41,582 bases of DNA. It comes from Chthonomonadaceae bacterium (GTDB lineage: Bacteria; Armatimonadota; Chthonomonadetes; Chthonomonadales; Chthonomonadaceae). The DNA lies in contig JANWZQ010000093.1 in assembly GCA_025054835.1 (NCBI GenBank), forward strand, positions 1 through 41,582, read 5' to 3'. Each line of letters opens with the position of its first letter. Positions within the stretch are counted from its first letter, which is position 1. The notes beneath the pieces are model-generated. The model worked only from the letters and a program-made list of their open reading frames with translations, made no database searches and was not told the origin of the DNA. Below, piece after piece: positions 9,117 to 19,991 of this stretch. Both the position numbers and the translations under genes were made by a program.

Positions 9117-10244
9117 TCACGTTCTGCTGGCCAGGGGCAGGACTTTGCGTCCCCGGGGGCCGTTGTACTCGCTGTGCGGGCGGATGATCCGATTGTTCTC
9201 CAGCTGTTCCATGATGTGGGCGCACCAGCCAGTGATCCGGCTCATGACGAAGATGGGGGTGTAGAGGGGCACCGGGATACCCATCAGGTAGTATGCGCTG
9301 GCGACCGGGAAGTCGAGGTTGGGGTAGAGGCGTCTGGTTTGCAGCATTACGTCTTCCACCACCTGTGAGATTTCGGCCCAACGTGTATCCCCGAGGGCTT
9401 CGCCCAGTTCTGTGGCGTATCGCTTGACGATCCGGGCGCGCTCATCGCCGCGTTTGTATTCGCGATGGCCGAACCCCATGATCTTGCGCTTCTGTGCCAG
9501 CGCGCTGTGCACCCATTCGGCGGCCCGGGAGGCCTGCCCGATCTCCAGCAGCATCGCCATGGCCGCCTCATTGGCTCCGCCATGCAACGGCCCCTTGAGC
9601 GTGCCAATGGCGGACACCACGCCGGAGTGCAGGTCGGAGAGCGTGGAGACGGTCACGCGTGCCGCGAAGGTGGAGGCGTTGAACCCGTGCTCTGCATAGA
9701 GGATTTGCGTGACGTTGAACACGCGCAGGAACAGGTCCGGGGGGCTCTGACCGGTCAGCAGGTAGAAGAAGCTGGCGTTGTGGTCTCGCTCCGGATCCGG
9801 TGTGATGGGCTCCTGCCCCTGCAGGATGCGATACCCGTTGACCACCAGCACGGGCATCTGCGCGAACAGACGGACTGCCTTGCGCCGATTGGCTTCATGT
9901 GAGTGATCGTGGCGGTCCGGGTCCAGGATTGCCAGCAGGGCCACGGCCGCCCTGAGCGCATCCATAGGGTGCGTGTCCGGCGGGAACTGCCGGTAGAGCG
10001 CGAGGACCGCTTCGGGCACGTTCCGGTTTTCCACAACCGTCTGCCGGAACGCGGCGTACTCCCGGGTTGTGGGGAGCTCGCCGTAGAGCAGCAGGTATGC
10101 GACCTCTTCGAAAGTGCAGTGTTCCACGAGGTCATGAATGTCGTAGCCGCGATAGATGAGCGCGTTGCGCTCTGCATCGACCTCGGAGATCGCTGAGATG
10201 CCCGCGGTCACGCCTTCGAGACCCGGGCTGTATGGGGTTGCCAT
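9117..10244 (-). CDS. gltA: Citrate synthase
   Basis: 375 aa from the ATG at 10244, which has GGAGGT 7 bp upstream; an upstream open extension of 33 codons lacks such a site. It condenses oxaloacetate and acetyl-CoA to citrate. Catalytic residues are visible: His221 in GPLHGGANEAAM, His260 in MGFGHREYKRGD and Asp311 in YPNLDFPVAS. His186 lies in the AEHGFNASTF segment. Length and the FGHREYK pattern match the short dimeric Gram-positive/archaeal type rather than the hexameric E. coli type. 2-methylcitrate synthase is close in sequence, but no prp genes are nearby. It is divergent from the B12-controlled operon and convergent with the membrane protein gene. Confidence 0.93.
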   Translation of the reverse strand: MATPYSPGLEGVTAGISAISEVDAERNALIYRGYDIHDLVEHCTFEEVAYLLLYGELPTTREYAAFRQTVVENRNVPEAVLALYRQFPPDTHPMDALRAAVALLAILDPDRHDHSHEANRRKAVRLFAQMPVLVVNGYRILQGQEPITPDPERDHNASFFYLLTGQSPPDLFLRVFNVTQILYAEHGFNASTFAARVTVSTLSDLHSGVVSAIGTLKGPLHGGANEAAMAMLLEIGQASRAAEWVHSALAQKRKIMGFGHREYKRGDERARIVKRYATELGEALGDTRWAEISQVVEDVMLQTRRLYPNLDFPVASAYYLMGIPVPLYTPIFVMSRITGWCAHIMEQLENNRIIRPHSEYNGPRGRKVLPLASRT

Positions 10245-10336
10245 GGGCGCTACCTCCATAATGCGCTGGATAGGGGCTTCGTTGCACGTCAGTAGCTGAA
10301 TCTCCTGCAAGAGTGGACGGCGGGGGCACGCAGGCA

Positions 10337-10365
10337 TTGACACGAGGCATGGAAGTCACTATAAT
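10337..10365 (+). promoter_or_regulatory. Consensus promoter of the cobalamin riboswitch operon
   Basis: TTGACA (10337-10342) and TATAAT (10360-10365) are both perfect consensus hexamers 17 bp apart. The start site would be about 10372, directly before the riboswitch aptamer. Such a strong promoter leaves regulation to the RNA. Confidence 0.85.
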
Positions 10366-10388
10366 GGGGGCATAACTGTATAGCGTGT

Positions 10389-10512
10389 ATCGCAGTGGCC
10401 GCGCTGCCTGGCGCGGCTGAAACACGGGGGAAGTCCGGTGCGAGTCCGGCACAGTCCCGCTACGGTGTTCCGCCGTCTGGTACGGTGGAGAGTCCGAGTG
10501 CCCGCCTGCGAT
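10389..10512 (+). ncRNA. Cobalamin (adenosylcobalamin-type) riboswitch aptamer
   Basis: The conserved core is clear: GAAACACGGGGGAAGTCCGG, GTGCGAGTCCGGCACAGTCC and CGCTACGGTG, followed by the B12-box-like GAGTCCGAGTGCCCGCCTGC. The closing P1 helix pairs ATCGCAG (10389-10395) with CTGCGAT (10506-10512). It sits between a consensus promoter and an intrinsic terminator, so it should shut off the downstream surface-protein genes when cobalamin is abundant. Which cobalamin form it prefers cannot be told by eye. Confidence 0.92.
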
Positions 10513-10544
10513 CCATCCGTATCCCTTCGCGTGAAAGGGGGGTG

Positions 10545-10601
10545 ATGAAACGTCTGCTGCCGTGCGTGGCTCTGCCTGCCAGCGCAACGGCATCGGAGTG
10601 A
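10545..10601 (+). CDS. Possible 18-aa leader peptide inside the riboswitch expression platform
   Basis: An ATG with a strong AAAGGGGGG ribosome-binding site opens an 18-codon frame (MKRLLPCVALPASATASE) that stops with TGA 5 bp before the terminator hairpin. It looks like a truncated signal peptide. It may be translated and influence terminator folding, or be chance. No conservation can be checked here. Confidence 0.35.
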   Translation: MKRLLPCVALPASATASE

Positions 10602-10606
10602 GTGCC

Positions 10607-10634
10607 AACCATCCGCGAACCGGATGGTTTTTTT
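10607..10634 (+). terminator. Intrinsic terminator of the cobalamin riboswitch
   Basis: AACCATCCG (10607-10615) pairs perfectly with CGGATGGTT (10621-10629) over a 5-nt loop, and the 3' arm runs into a T tract ending at 10634. A second copy of CCATCCG at 10513-10519, directly after the aptamer, can pair with the 3' arm and act as antiterminator. Confidence 0.9.
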
Positions 10635-10713
10635 GTTGCCCCTGAGCTCCTGCCTTTCTGTCAGGGTTCGGGCTCTGATCAGTGCGGTGTTTTCTGGAGG
10701 AAAGGAGAGTTGG

Positions 10714-12603
10714 ATGATCCGTAGCCACTGGTTCGGTGCGGCGCTCCTGCTGGCGACCGCACCCTGCGCTGGTCTGGCGCAACAGGTTGAAGGGTTTCAA
10801 GCGCCCACCGGTTATGCGGCCTTCCGGTTGGGTCTGTCCGGCAGCGCGTTTGCGGTTGCGCCGGACGGCAAGTTTGCTCTGGCGCAGGACGACTTCGGAG
10901 GCCGTGCGACCGTTACTGTGTACGACCGTATCGGGACAGGCCGGCGGGTCCTGACGACTTTTCAGGCCCCTGCCGGAACATCGTGGCAGTTTCTCGGGGG
11001 TCTGGCCTGGCAGGATGCCAGCACGCTGGTGATCAGCGAGAACGGGAGCGCAAGAACGGTGTTCTCCGCCTCACTGACCTCTGGCGAAGTGACCCTGCTG
11101 GCCCCGGTGAACAGCCTGCCGAATGTGGCGCAGATCGCGTTTGCGCCGGACGGCGTACTGTACGCGGGTCTGGCCAATGGCCCCGGCGCGAACGCTGTGG
11201 TCACTGTGGCTGGTGGCACAGTACGGCCGTTCGCATCCAACTTCGGGGCGGGCTATCTGGGGGGGTTGGCGTTTCGCCCTGCAGACGGTGCGCTGTTTGT
11301 GGGGGACACGAACGACCCGTTCTTTGCCGGGAATCCGGGGCAGGTACTGCAACTGAGTCCGGATGGTCTGCTGGTCGGACAGTTCTCGCTGGCCGGAGGA
11401 GGCGGCAGCGGGATTTATGACCTGGTTTTTGCGCCGAACGGTGATCTGTTTGCCAGCACAGGTCGCACGCTGACATTGCTGCGCGCGGGCACGAGCACGG
11501 CGGTACCGTTCGGGATGTTTTCCGGAGTGTTCCCCTTCCCCACGGAGCTGGACTTCTTTGGTGGAGAGTTCGCTCCCTTCAGTGGCGGGAGCGGGCAGTT
11601 GATCGTCAACGGGGAGTTCACCGGTGTGGGTGGACTGTTTGTTGTGCAACCAGCAGCAGTACCGGAACCTTCCGGTTTGATCCTGGTGGCGGCCGGTCCG
11701 GTTCTGCTGTTTCTTCTCTTCCTGCGACGCCGGGTATGGCTTGCAGTGGTGCTGTGCGTTGTGGCACCTCTACCGACTGCCGCGCAGTTCGCCACGCGGG
11801 TATGGGCCTACAACAGTGCCGGGGCGGTGCCCGGGTTCACGGACCCGACCAGAGCACTGGGGCCTCCTTCGACTACCGCCACGCCGACCGTGCCGGACAA
11901 TTCGAGCATCGTTTCGATCGGGAATGGCGGATATCTGGTTCTGGGTTTTGACGCGCCGATCCGCCGACAATACTACCGGCGGGACGGGTTTGACTTCATC
12001 GTATTTGGCAACGCCTTTTATGTGGGTGGCAACATTCACCTGCGTTTTCAGGAGCCCGGGTTCGTGGAGGTCGGGCTGGACCTGAACCGCAACGGCTACG
12101 ACCCGGACGACCCTTTTTACCTGCTCCGGGGCAGCCCGAACCCTACAAGCCTGCCGTTTCAGGGGATCGATGATCGCATCCACATGACATGGGGCTATGC
12201 GGATGTGACGCCAACCAACGGCGCGGGAAATCCGTTCCTTCCGGATGACCCCTTTACTTCCGGGATCACTCCGGGCTCCGCCGGTGGAGATGCTTTCAGT
12301 CTCTCCTGGGCGGTGGATGCGAGTGGCAATCCGGTGGTGCTGGATTACGCGGATTTCATCCGGATCCGGCCGGCGGGCAACTGGAGCACGGAGATTGATG
12401 CGGTGGTCGTGTTGCCGTGGGAGGACCGTCGGCGCCCTGATCCGCGCTCGCCGTACGAGCGGCTGTACCAGGTATCCGGTCCACCCCGTGGCTTCCGTGC
12501 GACGCCGGCTGCGGTGCCGGAGCCGGCCTCTGCTACGAGCGTGGCGATGGGCATGGCGCTGTGGGCATGGCGCAGGAGGCGCAGTTGCCGGGGAAACCAC
12601 TAG
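10714..12603 (+). CDS. Double surface protein: two domains, each with signal-like helix and PEP-CTERM anchor
   Basis: 629 aa from the ATG at 10714 (GGAAAGGAGAG upstream). Residues 1-23 are a signal peptide. Residues 24-315 form a propeller-like domain with FAPDGVLYAGLANGP and FAPNGDLFASTGRTL. Near 316 comes VPEPSG, a hydrophobic helix and RRR, a complete PEP-CTERM sorting signal. It is directly followed by VWLAVVLCVVAPLPTAAQ (about 341-359), which reads as a second signal peptide. Residues 360-595 (DPTRALGPP, PDNSSIVSIGNGG, DFIVFGNAFYVGGN, GGDAFSLSWAVD, STEIDAVVVL) resemble surface proteins I recall beside cobalamin genes in other bacteria. A second VPEPAS, helix and basic tail end the protein. 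The cobalamin riboswitch controls it. Exosortase-type anchoring is inferred; no exosortase gene is in the window. Confidence 0.82.
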   Translation: MIRSHWFGAALLLATAPCAGLAQQVEGFQAPTGYAAFRLGLSGSAFAVAPDGKFALAQDDFGGRATVTVYDRIGTGRRVLTTFQAPAGTSWQFLGGLAWQDASTLVISENGSARTVFSASLTSGEVTLLAPVNSLPNVAQIAFAPDGVLYAGLANGPGANAVVTVAGGTVRPFASNFGAGYLGGLAFRPADGALFVGDTNDPFFAGNPGQVLQLSPDGLLVGQFSLAGGGGSGIYDLVFAPNGDLFASTGRTLTLLRAGTSTAVPFGMFSGVFPFPTELDFFGGEFAPFSGGSGQLIVNGEFTGVGGLFVVQPAAVPEPSGLILVAAGPVLLFLLFLRRRVWLAVVLCVVAPLPTAAQFATRVWAYNSAGAVPGFTDPTRALGPPSTTATPTVPDNSSIVSIGNGGYLVLGFDAPIRRQYYRRDGFDFIVFGNAFYVGGNIHLRFQEPGFVEVGLDLNRNGYDPDDPFYLLRGSPNPTSLPFQGIDDRIHMTWGYADVTPTNGAGNPFLPDDPFTSGITPGSAGGDAFSLSWAVDASGNPVVLDYADFIRIRPAGNWSTEIDAVVVLPWEDRRRPDPRSPYERLYQVSGPPRGFRATPAAVPEPASATSVAMGMALWAWRRRRSCRGNH

Positions 12604-12619
12604 CCGGTCAGGAGGCGTC

Positions 12620-12838
12620 ATGTGTCAGGAAGCGAAGAAGCCTGTGCGTGCCTGTCTGTGTTACGCACGCACCTTTGCAGAGATCAAGGAGCTAGCGTTG
12701 CAGAACGGGTGGCGTACTGTGGCGGAGATCACGCAGGCGCTGGGTTGTGGCGGCGGCTGCGGGCTCTGCGTGCCCTATCTGGAGCGGATGCTGGCGACTG
12801 GTGAGACGGCATTCGCGGTGATTTCCCGGCAGGAGTGA
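12620..12838 (+). CDS. Bfd-like [2Fe-2S]-binding protein
   Basis: 72 aa. The ATG at 12620 follows GGAGG by 4-5 bp and lies 16 bp after the double surface protein, so it belongs to the B12-controlled operon. The spacing CLC near residue 12 and CGLC near residue 51, with CGGGC between, matches the CxC...CxxC cluster motif of bacterioferritin-associated ferredoxin-like domains. The helices FAEIKELALQNGWRTVAEIT and VPYLERML fit that fold. Family members accept or pass electrons, or form modules of larger reductases. A role in cobalamin reduction or iron release is conceivable but not shown. There is no bacterioferritin gene in the window. Confidence 0.8.
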   Translation: MCQEAKKPVRACLCYARTFAEIKELALQNGWRTVAEITQALGCGGGCGLCVPYLERMLATGETAFAVISRQE

Positions 12839-12950
12839 TGCACCGGGATGTGAGTGGAAGCGCCCGGCAGGATGACGTATCGGTGGCACAGAAAATTTCC
12901 GCGCATGGAGCGCCCGTGCTTCATGACGCATGTTTTCAGGAGAGTGCCCT

Positions 12951-15167
12951 GTGCCTGTTCGTCACTGCTGCCAATTGCTGTTCCGGGTGGTGTGCTTGCT
13001 AGCGGCCGTCTGCTCTGGAGATGCAGTTGCGCACGCATGGCAGAAGCCTGCAACGCGCTACCCCGGCCGGGATACGTTCAGCGACACATGGACCGCCACG
13101 GACGCGCTTGGCCGCACGCTCCCCGGCTACGAGCAGGTTGGTCCGCCACGCAAGAACCGTACCGTCGGCATCTTCTACTTTCTGTGGCATGGGGAGCATG
13201 TTCAGGGTGGCCCCTATGACATCACGAAGATCCTGCAGCAGGATCCAGAGGCGATGCGGAAGCCGGACAGTCCTCTCTGGGGACCGCTACACGCGCCTCA
13301 TCACTGGGGCGAGCCTCTTTTCGGCTATTACCTGAGCGATGACGCCTACGTGTTGCGCCGACACGCGCAGATGCTCTCGGACGCCGGGGTGGACGTGGTG
13401 ATTTTTGACGTGACGAACCAGTTCACCTACCGGCGTTATTACATGGCGCTGCTGAAGGTGTTTTCGGAGGTGCGGGCAGCCGGGGGAAGGACGCCGCAGG
13501 TCGCTTTTCTCTGCCCCTTCTGGTCGCCAGCAAGAGTTGTTGCGGAGCTCTATCGGGACCTGTACGCGCCGGGTCTCTACCCCGATCTCTGGTTTCGGTG
13601 GCAAGGGAAGCCGCTGATTCTGGCGGATCCGCTTCTGCTCGAGGAGGGAGAGGGGTTCTCGCAGCACAATACGCCGGCGGAGCTGCTCCCGGGCAGGACG
13701 CTCGGTCAATCGTTCACCACTCACAGACGGTTTGACGCGGTTGCCTGCCTGGCGCCGACATGGCGCACTCAGCACTCGGCGGTGACCCTGACGCTTCTGC
13801 AGGAGGGCCCGCGAGGTCGGCGGATTGCACGGAAGCGTTTCCGCCATGTTGCCGATAATGCGTGGCTTTCGCTCTCTTTTCCGAAGCCCTTGCCTCCCGG
13901 AACTTACTATCTGGAGATGTCGCATCCGCAGGGGAAAGTGGGGTGGTGGAGCCACACCGAGGACCTCTTTCCGAACGGGCAGGCCTACGTTGATGGTGCG
14001 CGGGTATCGGGCGATCGCTGTCTGCGCATCGCCACTCTGGGCGAGGGGACGCGTCTGCGTGATTTTTTCACCTTTCGGAAGCCCCAGCCGGACTACTTTC
14101 AGGGACCAACGGCGCCCAACATGTGGAGCTGGCTGGAGGTTTACCCGCAACACGTCTTCCGCAACGACCGGGGTGAGAAGGAGCAGATGTCGGTTGGTGT
14201 TGCGCAGAACGCGGTGCAGGGACGGCTCGGTGCGATGAGCGAGCCGGGTGCGCGTGGACGGAACTGGCACAACGGCGCTAACGACACCTCCCCGGGCGCT
14301 GTCCTGCGCGGTCTGAACTTTGCGGAGCAGTTTGAACATGCCCTCAAGGAGGACCCGCAGTTTCTCTTCATCACCGGGTGGAACGAGTGGATCGCAGGTC
14401 GTTTCGCCGAGTTTGCCGGGGTGAGGTTGCCGGTGATGTTTGTAGACCAGTTCAATCAGGAGTTCAGTCGTGACATCGAGCCCATGAAGGGTGGACATGC
14501 CGACAACTACTATTATCAGATGGTCAGCTACATCCGCCGCTTCAAGGGTGTCCGCAGGCCGCCGACATCCAGCCCTCCGAAGACCATCGTGATCGACGGC
14601 GACTTCTCGGACTGGAAGGATGTGCGCCCTGAATATCGCGATGACGCCGATGATCCGGCGCACCGGGATCACCCCGGATGGAACCACGTGGAGCACTACC
14701 GCAACACTACCGGGCGCAACGACTTTGTGCAGATGAAGGTGGCGCGTGATCGCGTGCACCTCTATTTCTATGTCCGCACGAAGGAACCGATCACTCCGCC
14801 GGAAGGTTCCCGCTGGATGTTGCTCTTCCTCAATACTGATGGAGACCCGACGACCGGATGGGAGGGTTACAATTTTGTCGTCAACCGTCTGCGCAGGGGC
14901 GACGGCACGAGCATACTGGAGGAGAGCCAGCACGGGTGGCACTGGAGACCGAAAGGGGAGGTACGCTATCGCATACGGGGCAGTGAGATGGAGCTGGCGA
15001 TCCGACGCGCTGATCTGGGGCTCGCCGATCTCTCGCGTCCGATCCAGCTGGAGTTCAAGTGGTCGGACAATATGCAACGCGAGGGCGATATCCTTGACTT
15101 CCTCATTCATGGAGATGCAGCCCCCGGGGGTCGTTTTAACTACCTGTACCGGGCTCCGGCGCGCTGA
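12951..15167 (+). CDS. Secreted GH99-like glycoside hydrolase with CBM9-like C-terminal domain
   Basis: 738 aa from a GTG at 12951 with AGGAG 8 bp upstream; an ATG at 12930 lacks such a site. Residues 1-29 are a signal peptide ending near AVAHA. The barrel-like part begins with VGIFYFLWHGEH and contains WGPLHAPHHWGEPLFGYY, DAGVDVVIFDVTN and, near residue 475, FITGWNEWIAGRF, a pattern typical of GH99/WbsX-like proteins. A beta-rich insert lies around residues 240-350. From about 545 on, IVIDGDFSDW starts a CBM9/DOMON-like domain, with VHLYFYVRTKEP and LFLNTDGDPTTGW. The substrate is unknown; an extracellular polysaccharide is likely. It starts 112 bp after the Bfd-like gene and may be read from the same transcript. 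Confidence 0.72.
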   Translation: MPVRHCCQLLFRVVCLLAAVCSGDAVAHAWQKPATRYPGRDTFSDTWTATDALGRTLPGYEQVGPPRKNRTVGIFYFLWHGEHVQGGPYDITKILQQDPEAMRKPDSPLWGPLHAPHHWGEPLFGYYLSDDAYVLRRHAQMLSDAGVDVVIFDVTNQFTYRRYYMALLKVFSEVRAAGGRTPQVAFLCPFWSPARVVAELYRDLYAPGLYPDLWFRWQGKPLILADPLLLEEGEGFSQHNTPAELLPGRTLGQSFTTHRRFDAVACLAPTWRTQHSAVTLTLLQEGPRGRRIARKRFRHVADNAWLSLSFPKPLPPGTYYLEMSHPQGKVGWWSHTEDLFPNGQAYVDGARVSGDRCLRIATLGEGTRLRDFFTFRKPQPDYFQGPTAPNMWSWLEVYPQHVFRNDRGEKEQMSVGVAQNAVQGRLGAMSEPGARGRNWHNGANDTSPGAVLRGLNFAEQFEHALKEDPQFLFITGWNEWIAGRFAEFAGVRLPVMFVDQFNQEFSRDIEPMKGGHADNYYYQMVSYIRRFKGVRRPPTSSPPKTIVIDGDFSDWKDVRPEYRDDADDPAHRDHPGWNHVEHYRNTTGRNDFVQMKVARDRVHLYFYVRTKEPITPPEGSRWMLLFLNTDGDPTTGWEGYNFVVNRLRRGDGTSILEESQHGWHWRPKGEVRYRIRGSEMELAIRRADLGLADLSRPIQLEFKWSDNMQREGDILDFLIHGDAAPGGRFNYLYRAPAR

Positions 15168-15201
15168 GCCCTTCTCGCTGGCCAGTGCGGTATTAGCCAT
15201 G

Positions 15202-15236
15202 CAAAAACGTCCCCTCTCAGGTCAAGAGGGGACGTT
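15202..15236 (-). terminator. Intrinsic terminator of the dockerin protein gene
   Basis: AACGTCCCCTCT (15206-15217) and AGAGGGGACGTT (15225-15236) form a perfect 12-bp stem. On the minus strand it is followed by TTTTTGC, a proper T tract. It lies 24 bp past the stop of the dockerin gene and may also stop transcripts of the convergent hydrolase gene. Confidence 0.9.
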
Positions 15237-15260
15237 GCGCGTTGCGGGACTGCTGTGGCG

Positions 15261-17015
15261 TCAGTCGCCGGACTGGTCGAAGTTGCGGATCAGGATGTCG
15301 AGGTCGAGCACGTCCACCGCGCCGTCGTTATTGAAGTCGGCGCCGGCGAGGAAGCCTGCATCGCCCGCGCTCTTATCGAACGAGGAGATCAGATCCGCCA
15401 GATCGAAGACGTCTACCGCGTTGTCGCCGTTGGCATCCCCACCCAGCAGGGTGACGTTGAGCGTTGCGGTGCCGCTGGTGGTGTTGACGCCGGAGACTAT
15501 CCTGCGCAGGTAGGTCGGGGCCTGAACGGTCACCGTGTAGGTGCCGAAGGGCAACCCGCCGACCGTGTACGTGCCAGCGGGCCCCACCTTCACGGGCACC
15601 ACGATCGGGCTACCTGAAGTCGGCTGGAAGGTGAAGGTTACCGTCTGGTCACTGCCCGTATTCTCCCATCGGAGGGTGCCCTGCACCGCGGAAGCCGGCA
15701 CGGCAGTGATGTTGAGTTTCGGCCCGTAACGGAACTGGGTGATAATCATGGGGTTCTGCCCGCGGTAGGTCGCTCCAACGCCGGGTGTGTTCGCGTTATC
15801 CGGGTTGATCACCAGGGTGAGCGTGTTGTCGGTGCGGATGTCGTTAGCGACGACGTCCGCGCCGCCCCCGGTGAGTGAGGGCCCGAACAGATTGATCACA
15901 TCCGTGGTGTCATCGTTGCGCACGAAGTTGAACGTGCGGATGACGGTCTGCCCGGCCGGTTGTGGCGATGGGTAGCGGAACGGGCTGGCCGACGTCTTGA
16001 TGTTGGTGGTGTCATCGGTGGTGTGACTGAAGATCACCGTGCCGTTGGCAGTCTGCGCGAAGTTACTCTGGGTCATACGCAGATCGACGTTGCGCACGCG
16101 CCAGTTGCCTGCGCCGTAGGTGGCATTGAACTGATTGCGGATGCGCGTCAGATTAAAGCGCAGGATGCCGTAGCACCGGGTTGCGGCCGTCTGATTATCG
16201 CCCAGAATATTGAAGAAGTTGTCGCCACCGGAACCGGTGAGCGGTCCCGTGCTGCGGATCTGTGCCGAGAGCACTTCATTGCTCCCGTCGGTGCGGTCCG
16301 CGAGGGTCGACTGCACGGTAGGTTGCGTGCCGTCGTTGCGCTCGGCAGTCACCACCAGCTGGGGTGACAGGAAGCTAATGGCGGGGAGCTGCCCGCGATA
16401 GGTGGCCGCGACGAAGGGGGAGAGCACATTGTCCGGGTTGAACACCAGGGTAAGCGTGTTGTCGTTCTGGATGTCGATGGCGGCCGCCTGAGCGCCCGGT
16501 GTGCCGGTGAACAGGTTGATCGTGTCGACGGTGCCGGTTGTCAGCCCGACAAAGTCGTGTTGCGTGATGCGGATCTGTCCTTCTGGAGCGGGGGTCTGAT
16601 AACGGAAGGGGCTGACGCCGACCGTGTTGATGTCATTGGTGTCGTCCGGGGTGAAGTCGATGAAGAACCGACCGTCCGCAGTGAACGCAGCGTTGTCCTG
16701 CGTGAGTTCGAGCGTGAGGCCGGACACCCGCCAACGGCCGTTGCCGAAAATGCTGTTGAACTGATTGCGTACGCGGGTCAGGTTGAAGCGGGCGATCCCG
16801 TAGGAAGCATTGGCACCGCCATCATCACCCTGGAAGTTGAAGAACCGGAGCCCGAGAGGAGCCGGGCGCGGGCCTGCCGGCTGGATCGTGCCAGTGAGGA
16901 CTTCGATGGCGCCCTGCGCGGGGTCGTTGATGGTGGAAAGCGTGGTTTGCGCGGATGCGACGCTGGACAGTGAAGTCGCCAGCGCACACAACGGCAAAAG
17001 GTCTTTCTTTCGCAT
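15261..17015 (-). CDS. Secreted protein with duplicated module and C-terminal type I dockerin
   Basis: 584 aa from the ATG at 17015 (GGAGA upstream); an upstream extension to 17123 has no ribosome-binding site. A signal peptide (RKKDLLPLCALATSLSSVASA) leads into two homologous modules of about 200 residues. Matching segments are ASYGIARFNLTRVRNQFNS and CYGILRFNLTRIRNQFNAT, then SPFRYQTPAPEGQ and SPFRYPSPQPAGQ, then NDNTLTLVFNPDN and TDNTLTLVINPDN. A carboxypeptidase-regulatory-like beta domain (TVGGLPFGTYTVTVQAP) follows. The C-terminus is a type I dockerin with two calcium loops, DANGDNAVDVFD and DFNNDGAVDVLD. No cohesin gene is nearby, so a non-cellulosomal role is likely, as for many lone dockerins. 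The modules are not recognised. It has its own terminator. Confidence 0.83.
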   Translation of the reverse strand: MRKKDLLPLCALATSLSSVASAQTTLSTINDPAQGAIEVLTGTIQPAGPRPAPLGLRFFNFQGDDGGANASYGIARFNLTRVRNQFNSIFGNGRWRVSGLTLELTQDNAAFTADGRFFIDFTPDDTNDINTVGVSPFRYQTPAPEGQIRITQHDFVGLTTGTVDTINLFTGTPGAQAAAIDIQNDNTLTLVFNPDNVLSPFVAATYRGQLPAISFLSPQLVVTAERNDGTQPTVQSTLADRTDGSNEVLSAQIRSTGPLTGSGGDNFFNILGDNQTAATRCYGILRFNLTRIRNQFNATYGAGNWRVRNVDLRMTQSNFAQTANGTVIFSHTTDDTTNIKTSASPFRYPSPQPAGQTVIRTFNFVRNDDTTDVINLFGPSLTGGGADVVANDIRTDNTLTLVINPDNANTPGVGATYRGQNPMIITQFRYGPKLNITAVPASAVQGTLRWENTGSDQTVTFTFQPTSGSPIVVPVKVGPAGTYTVGGLPFGTYTVTVQAPTYLRRIVSGVNTTSGTATLNVTLLGGDANGDNAVDVFDLADLISSFDKSAGDAGFLAGADFNNDGAVDVLDLDILIRNFDQSGD

Positions 17016-17201
17016 GGTCTTCTCCTTGAACAAGCGAAGGGATTTCGAACCTGCTGCATCACTGCCGTGTACTGCGCTACTGCCACATTCAGTATACTTG
17101 CAGAGGGCGTCTGGATGAGTCACCGGTATTTTAAGGTTCTGTTAAGTTTTGCGTTCGAGTAGCGGCTGACGGCGTGGTGGGCGCGCGGATCCCTGCCGGG
17201 T

Positions 17202-17231
17202 TTGACAGGGCGTGCCGAAACGAAGTACACT
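17202..17231 (+). promoter_or_regulatory. Promoter of the sugar-phosphate isomerase-like gene
   Basis: TTGACA (17202-17207) and TACACT (17226-17231) are 18 bp apart. The expected start site near 17238 leaves a leader of about 42 nt before the ATG at 17280. Confidence 0.7.
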
Positions 17232-17279
17232 GGAACGGTTTCTGCATCCGTCGCCGGAGGAGTAGAGAGGGGTGCATTC

Positions 17280-18164
17280 ATGCAACTGGCAGCCATTACC
17301 GACGAGATTTCACAGGACTTTGAGCATGCGCTGGACGTGCTGCGGGAGTACGGCGCAACCGGCGCGGAACTGCGCGGGCTCTGGGGAACCAACATCGCGG
17401 ACCTGAGCGATGCGCAGGTTGCCCGGGCTGATGCAGCGATGCGGGAGCGTGGCATCCGTCCGGTCTGTCTGGCCACCCCTTTTTTCAAGTGCGATCTGGA
17501 CCCGGCGGAGCCGAACCCGGGAGAGGCCGTCGGGCGCATGCATCTGGCCCAGCCCCGTGGTCTGGAACAGCAGATGGAGATGTTGCAACGGTGTATCGCG
17601 ATCGCGCACCGACTGGCGGTGCCCTACCTGCGCATCTTCTCATTCTGGAAGCGCGATCGGCTCACGCCGCAGATCGAGGCGCGGATTGTGGAGGCGCTGC
17701 AGGAACCGGTGGCACTGGCTGCCCGGGCTGGCGTGACGTTGCTGCTGGAGAACGAGCATGCCTGTTACATTGGCACGGGGCAGGAGGCAGCTCGCGTGGC
17801 TGCTGCGGTGAACTCGCCGCATCTGCGTCTCGTATGGGATCCTGGCAACGCTTTCTGCGCCGGCGAGACCCCGTACCCGGACGGCTATCTGGCCGTGCGG
17901 CCCTATCTGGCGCATATGCATGTCAAGGACGCCCGCATGGTAGATACGCCTCACCACGGCCGGCAACCGGAATGGTGCGTGATCGGCGAGGGGGACATCG
18001 ACTACGCCGGGCAGTTTGCTGCGTTGAAGCAGGATGGCTACACCGGGTACGTCTCACTGGAGACTCATTACATTCCTGAGGCCGGCAGCGGCGAGAATGG
18101 CAGAGGCACTGCGGAGGATGGTTCGCGCCTCTGTCTGGCTGCTTTGCAGCGGTTTCTGGCATAG
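17280..18164 (+). CDS. Sugar phosphate isomerase/epimerase (xylose isomerase-like TIM barrel)
   Basis: 294 aa from the ATG at 17280, which has GAGAGGGG about 8 bp upstream. A promoter 50 bp further up ends inside the longer open frame, so the earlier start is rejected. The pattern is that of AP-endonuclease-2/xylose isomerase-like barrels: ITDEISQDFEHALDVLREYG and GAELRGLWGTN at the start, LLLENEHACYIGTG (metal-binding Glu), LRLVWDPGNAF, and AHMHVKDARMVDT with the HxHxKD-type metal ligands. GEGDIDYAGQFAALKQDGYTG and VSLETHY complete the barrel. The divalent-metal site seems intact. The natural sugar substrate cannot be told; inosose isomerase or hydroxypyruvate isomerase relatives look similar. 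It is followed 21 bp later by the SurA-like gene. Confidence 0.82.
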   Translation: MQLAAITDEISQDFEHALDVLREYGATGAELRGLWGTNIADLSDAQVARADAAMRERGIRPVCLATPFFKCDLDPAEPNPGEAVGRMHLAQPRGLEQQMEMLQRCIAIAHRLAVPYLRIFSFWKRDRLTPQIEARIVEALQEPVALAARAGVTLLLENEHACYIGTGQEAARVAAAVNSPHLRLVWDPGNAFCAGETPYPDGYLAVRPYLAHMHVKDARMVDTPHHGRQPEWCVIGEGDIDYAGQFAALKQDGYTGYVSLETHYIPEAGSGENGRGTAEDGSRLCLAALQRFLA

Positions 18165-18185
18165 AGCATAAGGGTAGAACGCGCA

Positions 18186-19991
18186 ATGGCTGATCTGTTA
18201 TCCATCACTACGTGGCGCAATGCTTTCTCCAAACATGGCTCCAAGCTGGGGTGGGGCCTGGCAATCATTTTCGGATTGCCCCTGGTGGTACAGTTCGGAC
18301 TGAACCAGTACGGGGGTGCGCTGGATGAGCGGGGCGCGGCGGAGGCGGCGCAGAACGCCCCAATCGCACGCGTGAATGGCGAGCCCATCACGCGCAAGCA
18401 GTTCCTGCAACTGACCCAGCGCATGCAGACCCAACCCGGTGTGTCTTTCGCGCAGATGCAGGGTGGTGCGCTGGATCAGTTGATCAGTTTCACTATTCTC
18501 AAGCAGGAGGCCCGTAAGCGCCGGGTACGCCCCGGTGATGCGGAGGTCGATCGGCAGATCACGGAGCTCCGGGAACGCACACTGGGCAAGAAGGGCACGG
18601 ATGCTGACTGGGAGCGCTACCTGATGCAGGCCTTCGGCGCCTCGCCCCGTGAGTTCCGCGAAATGGTCGCGGAACAGATGGTCGGGCAGGCTCTGCTGAA
18701 CGCGTTCAAGGCCGAAGAGAAAGTTACGGAGGAGGATGCACGTAAGCAGAGCGCGGAGGTGAAACTGGCCTACGTGCTGGTTCCTGTGATCAACCCGAAC
18801 TCTTCGATGGCAACGCCCCCGCGCGGGCCAAAGCCCCTGCCGGACGCGGAGGCGAAAAAGCAGGCAGAGGCCCTGCTGGCCCAGGCCAGAGGAGGAGCTG
18901 ACATCGCCGCACTGGCGAAGAAACATTCTGCAGACTTCTCGGCAGAGAAGGGCGGTGATCTGGGCTGGCAGCCGGAGTTCACCCGGTTCGCTTTCTCACT
19001 GCAGGGGAAAGAGTTCGCGGAGGCCGTGCGGAACACGCCCACGGGCCAGTTCACTTCCGTTGTCCGGGTGAAAGGCTTTCAGCCAGGTTACGCCTTTGCG
19101 AAAGTGGTTTCACGGCGCAACAACCTGCCCAAGGACTTCGATGCTAAAAAGGTTATCGAGCAGTTGAAGGAGGAACGTGCGCAGGAGCGGCTCGCCAACC
19201 TGCTCAGAGAGGGCAAGAAGCAGGCAAGGATTGAGATCCTCGACCTCGAGAAAAAGGCCTTCCATGCCTTCTTCCGTGCCCAGCAGATGCAGCAGGAACA
19301 GATGATGGCGCAGTTCGGCCAGGGCGTTGAGGATGCGCCGACGAAGGAGGACGTGGAGAAGCAGCAGGCGGAAGCAGATGCGCTGCTGGAGGAGGCGTTG
19401 AAGAAAAACCCGAAGGACGCCACGCTGGCTCTGATGGTCGCGGAAACCCTCAAGCGCAAGCGCTTTGACCCGAAGACTTCCCCACAAGAGCGCGAGAAGA
19501 TCAACGAGCGCCTGATTACGCTCTATGAGACGGCTCTGGAAAGCACGGAAAATCAAGAGATGCGCTTCGAGCTGGCCGACATGTACCGTCAGAAGAAGCA
19601 GAACGATCGTGCCGAGAAGCACTACGCGCTGATCGCGCGCTTGCTGGCGGCCTCGCCCCCGTACGATGTCAGCACCGCACAGCAGGCCAACCAGGCCCAT
19701 CGCCGGCTTGTTGCTGCGTTCAACAGCATCAATAAGCCTGAAGAGGCCGCCAAACAGCAGAAGCTGGTAGCGGAAACCGAAAAGAAGATCGCCGAGTATC
19801 GGGCCGCCGAAGAGAAGAAGCGCCGGGAGCTGGAGCAACAGCAGAAGGCCACAGCATTGACGCCTCCGGGCGGTGTGACAGTGGCACCGGGCGGTACGGC
19901 AAGCGTAGATCAAACAGTTCGCACACCGGCTGCGAAAACCAGTACGGCCAGTGATCGGAAGCCGGGCGCGCAGTCCGGTTCGACGCCCTGA
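18186..19991 (+). CDS. SurA/PpiD-like peptidyl-prolyl isomerase with TPR-like C-terminal half
   Basis: 601 aa. A single N-terminal membrane anchor (GWGLAIIFGLPLVVQFGL, residues about 19-38) is followed by a SurA N-terminal domain (APIARVNGEPITRKQFLQL, then LDQLISFTILKQEARKR). A parvulin-type PPIase domain covers about 195-320, with HSADFSAEKGGDLGWQ and TGQFTSVVRVKGFQPGYAFAKV. The second half is helical and charged, with TPR-like pairs around 395-545 and a Lys/Glu/Gln-rich coiled region, ending in a low-complexity Pro/Gly/Thr tail. The likely role is folding of exported proteins on the outer face of the inner membrane. It may form an operon with the isomerase upstream and rsmI downstream. The TPR extension is larger than in SurA or PpiD of E. 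coli. Confidence 0.85.
   Translation: MADLLSITTWRNAFSKHGSKLGWGLAIIFGLPLVVQFGLNQYGGALDERGAAEAAQNAPIARVNGEPITRKQFLQLTQRMQTQPGVSFAQMQGGALDQLISFTILKQEARKRRVRPGDAEVDRQITELRERTLGKKGTDADWERYLMQAFGASPREFREMVAEQMVGQALLNAFKAEEKVTEEDARKQSAEVKLAYVLVPVINPNSSMATPPRGPKPLPDAEAKKQAEALLAQARGGADIAALAKKHSADFSAEKGGDLGWQPEFTRFAFSLQGKEFAEAVRNTPTGQFTSVVRVKGFQPGYAFAKVVSRRNNLPKDFDAKKVIEQLKEERAQERLANLLREGKKQARIEILDLEKKAFHAFFRAQQMQQEQMMAQFGQGVEDAPTKEDVEKQQAEADALLEEALKKNPKDATLALMVAETLKRKRFDPKTSPQEREKINERLITLYETALESTENQEMRFELADMYRQKKQNDRAEKHYALIARLLAASPPYDVSTAQQANQAHRRLVAAFNSINKPEEAAKQQKLVAETEKKIAEYRAAEEKKRRELEQQQKATALTPPGGVTVAPGGTASVDQTVRTPAAKTSTASDRKPGAQSGSTP

Follow-up and report, generated by a model that had tools for sequence, protein, structure and literature searches.

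A riboswitch-headed operon and its fused surface protein

This analysis concerns a short operon, headed by a cobalamin (vitamin B12) riboswitch, in a 41,582-nucleotide contig of a Chthonomonadaceae bacterium (from the little-known phylum Armatimonadota; JANWZQ010000093.1, assembly GCA_025054835.1), the whole of which is referred to as the window. The operon runs from position 10337 to 12838 of the plus strand and encodes a fused surface protein, carrying a predicted corrinoid-binding domain of the BtuH type, and a small Bfd-like [2Fe-2S] protein.

The leader starts with a sigma-70-type promoter (TTGACA-17-TATAAT, positions 10337 to 10365), whose two hexamers, separated by a 17-nt spacer, match the consensus at 12 of 12 bases; one such consensus promoter was observed, against 0.4 expected from shuffled sequences. 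It is followed by a cobalamin riboswitch aptamer (10377 to 10523), which covers positions 1-189 of the RF00174 covariance model and, with 34.5 bits, passes the curated cut-off of 31.5. The expression platform, as judged by folding, is an intrinsic terminator (10607 to 10636), consisting of a 9-bp stem at 10607-10629 and a subsequent T run. From this arrangement, the riboswitch would act as an OFF switch.

The first gene (10714 to 12603) encodes a 629-residue protein in which a signal peptide precedes a predicted six-bladed beta-propeller of the NHL type (residues 29-315; 10798 to 11658), an internal PEP-CTERM signal of the form VPEP-TM-RRR, TM denoting a transmembrane stretch (residues 316-340; 11659 to 11733), an internal hydrophobic stretch resembling a signal peptide and ending in TAA-Q (residues 341-358; 11734 to 11787), the BtuH-type domain with its GNAF motif (residues 359-570; 11788 to 12423) and a C-terminal PEP-CTERM signal (residues 601-624; 12514 to 12585). 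The latter scores 23.6 bits with TIGR02595, above the cut-off of 16. Two stretches of the protein are recognised by the PEP-CTERM models, and three exosortase matches were found in the host genome, as expected of an exosortase substrate. The second gene (12620 to 12838), which starts 16 bases after the first, encodes a protein of 72 residues assigned to PF04324 (Fer2_BFD; E 1.6e-9, 38.4 bits against a cut-off of 26). Its cysteines at positions 12, 14, 47 and 50 show what we take to be the Bfd spacing. The window protein thus resembles known Bfd-like proteins in score and in its four cysteines, and differs from them in lying in a B12-riboswitch operon with surface proteins rather than forming part of NirB or NifU.

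A preliminary description of this DNA had proposed a leader with consensus promoter, aptamer and terminator, and an operon devoid of BtuB, BtuCDF and cob/cbi genes. Both proposals were confirmed, the latter by a scan of seven genes from position 9117 to 19988, which showed no btuB, btuCDF or cob/cbi gene. The same description named a double PEP-CTERM protein and a Bfd-like protein as the first genes; the assignment holds, with PEP-CTERM signals starting at residues 316 and 601, and is here amended in that the first gene is a single open frame combining two secretable units, and each unit brings a signal-like stretch of its own.

Such a layout could arise from an assembly or sequencing error joining two genes, and the propeller and the BtuH domain are indeed encoded by separate, neighbouring genes in four other Armatimonadota genomes, G151, G191, G228 and G040 (G denotes genomes of this phylum, G000 being the window host, C their contigs and L loci from GTDB). 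However, the same propeller-BtuH fusion, with the identical VPEP-TM-RRR-TM junction and the internal signal-like stretch, recurs in G094 and G207, which belong to two other families; the G207 protein ends in a dockerin-like tail in place of the second PEP-CTERM signal. Because layout and junction recur, and the two halves are adjacent elsewhere, a genuine gene fusion is likely and an artefact very improbable. The fused protein probably gives rise to two displayed proteins by cleavage at the junction.

The BtuH domain and its association with cobalamin riboswitches

When the second surface domain was compared with the PDB as a single sequence, two matches were obtained, 8BLW chain B (1.7e-9) and 7BIZ (4.3e-9), the third match, at 0.053, not being credible. 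A profile built from 16 relatives strengthened both (1.6e-27 and 1.9e-17, respectively), and no other entry appeared up to E 1. Specifically, 8BLW chain B is BtuG1 (BtuGH, BT_1490) of Bacteroides thetaiotaomicron, in which a BtuH domain is joined to a propeller (PMC10404256), and 7BIZ is the B12-bound structure of the Bacteroides protein BtuH2 (BT_1956; PMC8941943). The only structural relatives of the domain are therefore two BtuH domains, both from B12-capture proteins. In agreement with this, a Foldseek search with the whole AlphaFold model ranked BtuG1 first (8BLW_B, E 7e-17), followed at a distance by a match at 5.6e-10. In BtuH2, Asn399 is reported to contact the phosphate and Phe401 the lower ligand (PMC8941943). 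Both residues map onto the GNAF motif of the window domain, where the counterpart of Asn399, N433, is near-invariant in an alignment of 41 rows. By sequence comparison, then, the second surface domain is BtuH, the domain with which BtuH2 and BtuG1 of Bacteroides bind B12.

The propeller model contains 24 predicted strands, corresponding to six blades of four, with most 10-residue blocks at a pLDDT (predicted local distance difference test) of 85-97. In VIA-align, six-bladed NHL propellers matched best, at Z about 26, and BtuG was not listed, an absence that excludes nothing alone. The BtuG2 propeller is described as seven-bladed (PMC10404256). An identification of the window propeller as BtuG was rejected on the basis of the six predicted blades, the lack of a sequence relation and the lack of a btuB neighbour, no TonB receptor or plug having been found in the host genome. 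The architecture is thus that of BtuG1, a propeller followed by a BtuH domain, with a propeller that is not itself BtuG.

Both proteins combine the two domains in one surface protein at a cobalamin-riboswitch locus (PMC10404256, PMC8941943). They differ in that the window propeller is predicted to be six-bladed and has no detectable sequence kinship with that of BtuG1, the anchor is PEP-CTERM and not lipid, no BtuB partner gene is present, and an internal exosortase/signal junction separates the halves. With BtuH2 the window protein shares the C-terminal domain and the positions of Asn399 and Phe401; the propeller takes the place of the Ig-like PKD domains, the ring-contact region has diverged, the loop carrying Trp577 and Leu578 is shortened, and by eye the protein is not a lipoprotein. 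DUF4465, or BtuJ, comprises further surface and vesicle B12-binding proteins, with DUF4465 spread across several clades (PMC12751083, PMC13398666). This identity was rejected, no DUF4465 match being present among the Pfam hits of the window protein (E up to 1) or of P2, a partner protein described below, and we regard the family as separate from both.

The distribution of the domain was followed in 251 Armatimonadota genomes, 21 of which contain BtuH-domain genes, and in GTDB contigs. The latter yielded 43 BtuH loci, of which 35 were scanned with Rfam and the other eight repeat loci of the phylum-wide search. By their names, the GTDB loci belong to Armatimonadota, Verrucomicrobia, Omnitrophota, Hydrogenedentes, Nitrospiraceae, Planctomycetota, Spirochaetes, Lentisphaerae, Desulfobacterales and others. 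An RF00174 riboswitch lies upstream on the same strand, 183-1655 bases before the BtuH domain, in 30 of the 35 scanned loci (17/20 and 13/15 in the two sets). Among the 21 Armatimonadota genes, 13 have a riboswitch, two are cut by a contig end and six have none, namely that of G166 and five located away from a propeller. Altogether, a same-strand upstream riboswitch of the cobalamin class was found at 43 of 56 BtuH loci, with ten loci lacking it and three more, including L068, cut by a contig end; the 43 include an AdoCbl match in G191, which at 45.5 bits is below the family cut-off of 50. Every propeller locus with upstream sequence has a riboswitch (10/10, two of them AdoCbl-II and that of G191 below cut-off). 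In addition, the cobalamin riboswitches of known place in the BtuH genomes all stand at the cassette, G166 being excepted from this count. The chance estimate assumes two riboswitches per 4 megabases, the Armatimonadota value, and is to be read as an order of magnitude only.

The expectation of enrichment near B12 riboswitches is therefore borne out, in several phyla, by the 43 of 56 loci, and the proposed presence of related proteins beside cobalamin genes in Planctomycetota agrees with the share of that phylum among the newly scanned GTDB loci, 19 of 35. The five propeller-distant genes (G237:C195, G240:C25, G244:C1, G031:C15 and G002:C42) are, in several cases, dockerin-tailed; their genomes carry the propeller elsewhere, and no riboswitch was detected at these genes.

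Partner genes and the host genome

Clustering and profile searches of the BtuH loci led to the identification of recurrent partner genes. A Bfd homologue is present in 12 of the 35 GTDB loci, every one of them from Planctomycetota, and in the complete loci of this phylum the order is riboswitch, propeller, BtuH, pseudopilin, Bfd. The pseudopilin, with an N-methylation motif and a DUF1559 start, is found in 27 of the 35 loci; two relatives also match an H-X9-DG motif, and three of the 27 (L092-L094) score no higher than the ordinary pseudopilins in this set (about 1e-30 versus 1e-28). In L064 (1325-4126) and L065 (1297-3711), BtuH lies in one open frame with a pseudopilin that has a prepilin leader of its own, which makes this the second instance of a fusion spanning a signal sequence.

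The third partner, here named P2, is a PEP-CTERM protein present in 30 of the 251 Armatimonadota genomes. An upstream riboswitch of the cobalamin class accompanies 23 of 32 P2 loci (14 by position and nine of the 18 scanned, six of these reaching the cut-off). Examples lie on the minus strand at G000:C87:14076-14726 and L003:10858-11616, both without a Pfam or PDB relative, and in metagenome-assembled genomes of Lentisphaerae P2 is fused to BtuH under a riboswitch (L095:2556-4349 and L097:2553-4355). The P2 profile gave no credible match in PDB or Pfam, and fold prediction with three sequences reached a mean pLDDT of only 41.9; the Foldseek list of the model is not meaningful. A likeness of its strand pattern to the transcobalamin-like DUF4430 is an impression only, without support from the searches.

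The host genome contains a second cobalamin riboswitch (C87:15672-15810, 67.7 bits), which stands before the pseudopilin, as the first gene, and P2. Both host riboswitches serve the cassette gene set, and, as the C87 locus adds pseudopilin and P2 to the window operon, the two loci jointly carry all five members. The host also encodes four proteins with the B12-binding domain PF02310 and, on C167, a BtuF-like protein paired with a BtuC-like one; the best scores of the pair with B12-specific NCBIfam models fall short of the cut-offs of these models. CobS was absent from G000, as from all 14 genomes tested (0/14). Since the assembly is 97% complete, absences in it are strong, not final. The only BtuH genome of the same family is G151, a Chthonomonadaceae metagenome-assembled genome.

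As in the host, TonB receptor and plug were not found in G191, G040, G031 and G101. Counted by eye, a TonB receptor is present in 14 of the 21 genomes with BtuH and in 17 of the 30 with P2, against 144 of the 251 overall. The proposal that the cassette replaces TonB receptors was thus not borne out, and the lack of depletion disfavours a simple replacement of BtuB. In at least 14 Armatimonadota genomes, again by eye, the cobalamin riboswitch has a TonB receptor gene as its neighbour (G073:C379, G005:C2, G200:C82 and others); among the matches listed, none of these is one of the 48 cassette genomes, a weak signal with P about 0.05.

In the window, about 90 bases after the Bfd-like gene, a gene at 12930-15167 encodes a 745-residue secreted protein with weak likeness to glycosyl hydrolase family 99. 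Its inclusion in the cassette was weighed and rejected, no homologue being present in the loci searched; given this lack of a counterpart, it is probably a neighbour only. Near the PEP-CTERM operon, a 620-residue protein (15261-17123, minus strand) has a dockerin type I end.

Probable surface capture of corrinoids and alternative explanations

We consider it likely that the window contains a B12-repressed corrinoid-capture operon, in which a variant of the BtuG/BtuH system, displayed by means of PEP-CTERM signals, performs capture at the surface. Several lines of evidence support this reading: the riboswitch at 43 of 56 BtuH loci and 10 of 10 propeller loci; BtuH as the domain's only relative in the PDB, BtuG1 as top Foldseek match and the retention of Asn399 as N433; a host lacking CobS and possessing B12-binding-domain proteins, a BtuFC-like pair and exosortases; and the conserved place of Bfd in 12 Planctomycetota loci, together with both host riboswitches serving the gene set.

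Under the proposed mechanism, scarce cobalamin would leave the aptamer empty and the terminator at 10607 unformed, so that the operon is transcribed. The fused protein would be exported by Sec and then probably cleaved by exosortase and signal peptidase where the internal PEP-CTERM signal meets the signal-like stretch, so that a propeller protein and a BtuH-domain protein are displayed, either on the outer surface or within exopolymer. There, the BtuH domain would hold the corrinoid, the conserved Asn of GNAF gripping the nucleotide-loop phosphate, and the propeller, as in BtuG1, may provide another surface for capture or hand-over. The corrinoid would then cross the outer membrane and enter the cytoplasm through the BtuFC-like importer, where Bfd would probably supply electrons for its reduction, while the second riboswitch locus would contribute pseudopilin and P2. 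Of this picture, the riboswitch, the homologies, the conservation of the gene set and the inventory of enzymes and transporters were observed; the direction of switching, cleavage, binding, hand-over and the roles of Bfd, pseudopilin and P2 are inferred.

A number of observations weigh against this interpretation. The aptamer score is modest, even though the match spans the model from 1 to 189; pseudopilin and P2 are absent from the window locus itself; and no BtuG appeared among the PDB matches of the propeller up to E 10. Only two of eight named BtuH2 contact residues, Asn399 and Phe401, can be aligned reliably; Tyr510, Trp511 and His476, which contact the ring, lie in an unalignable region, and B12 binding by the window proteins is a prediction. 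Finally, no riboswitch was detected in the flanks scanned at the five Armatimonadota BtuH genes remote from a propeller, which means that B12 does not regulate the domain in every case.

B12 might alternatively be only a cue, the surface proteins serving adhesion, matrix building or attachment to substrates through their PEP-CTERM or dockerin anchors. Pseudopilins often serve adhesion, and many cassette proteins elsewhere carry dockerin-like repeats. PEP-CTERM proteins have been tied to exopolysaccharide (PMC1569441). Against this stand the BtuH domain, whose PDB relatives are solely BtuH domains of B12-capture proteins, its occurrence in Bacteroides B12 uptake loci (PMC8941943) and the position at the cassette of the BtuH-genome riboswitches of known place; we regard a purely signalling role of B12 as distinctly unlikely. 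The preliminary description had offered B12 capture or B12 sparing as its hypothesis. Elsewhere, B12 riboswitches control B12-independent isozymes, and by analogy the operon might substitute for a B12-dependent enzyme. The cassette, however, consists of surface proteins, a pseudopilin and a 72-residue [2Fe-2S] protein, none matching an enzyme family or resembling such an isozyme. Sparing, extremely improbable, was accordingly dropped, whereas BtuH identity and riboswitch linkage support the capture half of that hypothesis.

A bolder version of capture adds a pilus-like import step. In cells lacking a TonB B12 receptor, corrinoid would be carried across the envelope by a fibre that the B12-regulated pseudopilin forms or caps. 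This version is favoured by the pseudopilin in 27 of 35 GTDB loci and its first place after the second riboswitch of the host, by the open frame shared with BtuH in L064 and L065, and by the five genomes (G000, G191, G040, G031 and G101) without TonB receptor and plug. TonB receptors are nevertheless not depleted in cassette genomes, and DUF1559-type pseudopilins are abundant in these phyla in any case, so that we hold this step to be rather unlikely. We give an equally small chance to its fullest form, a new B12 uptake machine common to Armatimonadota, Planctomycetota, Hydrogenedentes, Lentisphaerae and others, in which exosortase-displayed BtuH, propeller and P2 would catch corrinoid, a pseudopilin fibre and not a TonB receptor would move it to or through the outer membrane, and the [2Fe-2S] protein would reduce it inside.

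Returning to surface capture by a BtuG/BtuH-type system, this process and its riboswitch control are known from Bacteroides (PMC6143338, PMC8941943, PMC10404256); descriptions come from gut Bacteroidetes, and three BtuH-like genes have been reported in Firmicutes (PMC8941943). A PEP-CTERM exoprotein made under micronutrient scarcity and aiding uptake of that nutrient also has a precedent in ZepA (PMC10957091), which concerns zinc and Zur instead of B12 and a riboswitch, and is likened here by role, not by domain comparison. The literature search, which excluded subscription papers and preprints, returned nothing relevant joining a cobalamin riboswitch to PEP-CTERM, pseudopilin or prepilin, BtuG to Planctomycetes, or PEP-CTERM to vitamin B12, and no paper on Armatimonadetes, cobalamin and riboswitch. 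The suggestion that the system is poorly described thus fails for the domain, known as BtuH from 7BIZ (PMC8941943), and stands for its exosortase-anchored use outside Bacteroidota and its partner genes, of which no description was found. As far as this literature reaches, what is new is the exosortase-anchored form, its occurrence across further phyla, and the pseudopilin, P2 and Bfd partners that recur with it.

In conclusion, these data suggest a wider occurrence of cell-surface B12 capture than has been described. As a nutrient, B12 is both shared and contested, and the same domain under the same riboswitch in Armatimonadota, Planctomycetota, Hydrogenedentes, Lentisphaerae and Spirochaetes would extend its capture to many lineages outside the gut. 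In addition, a testable role is provided for three uncharacterised gene groups, P2, this group of pseudopilins and this group of Bfd proteins, and in a host with no detected TonB receptor the passage of B12 over the outer membrane without BtuB becomes directly testable.

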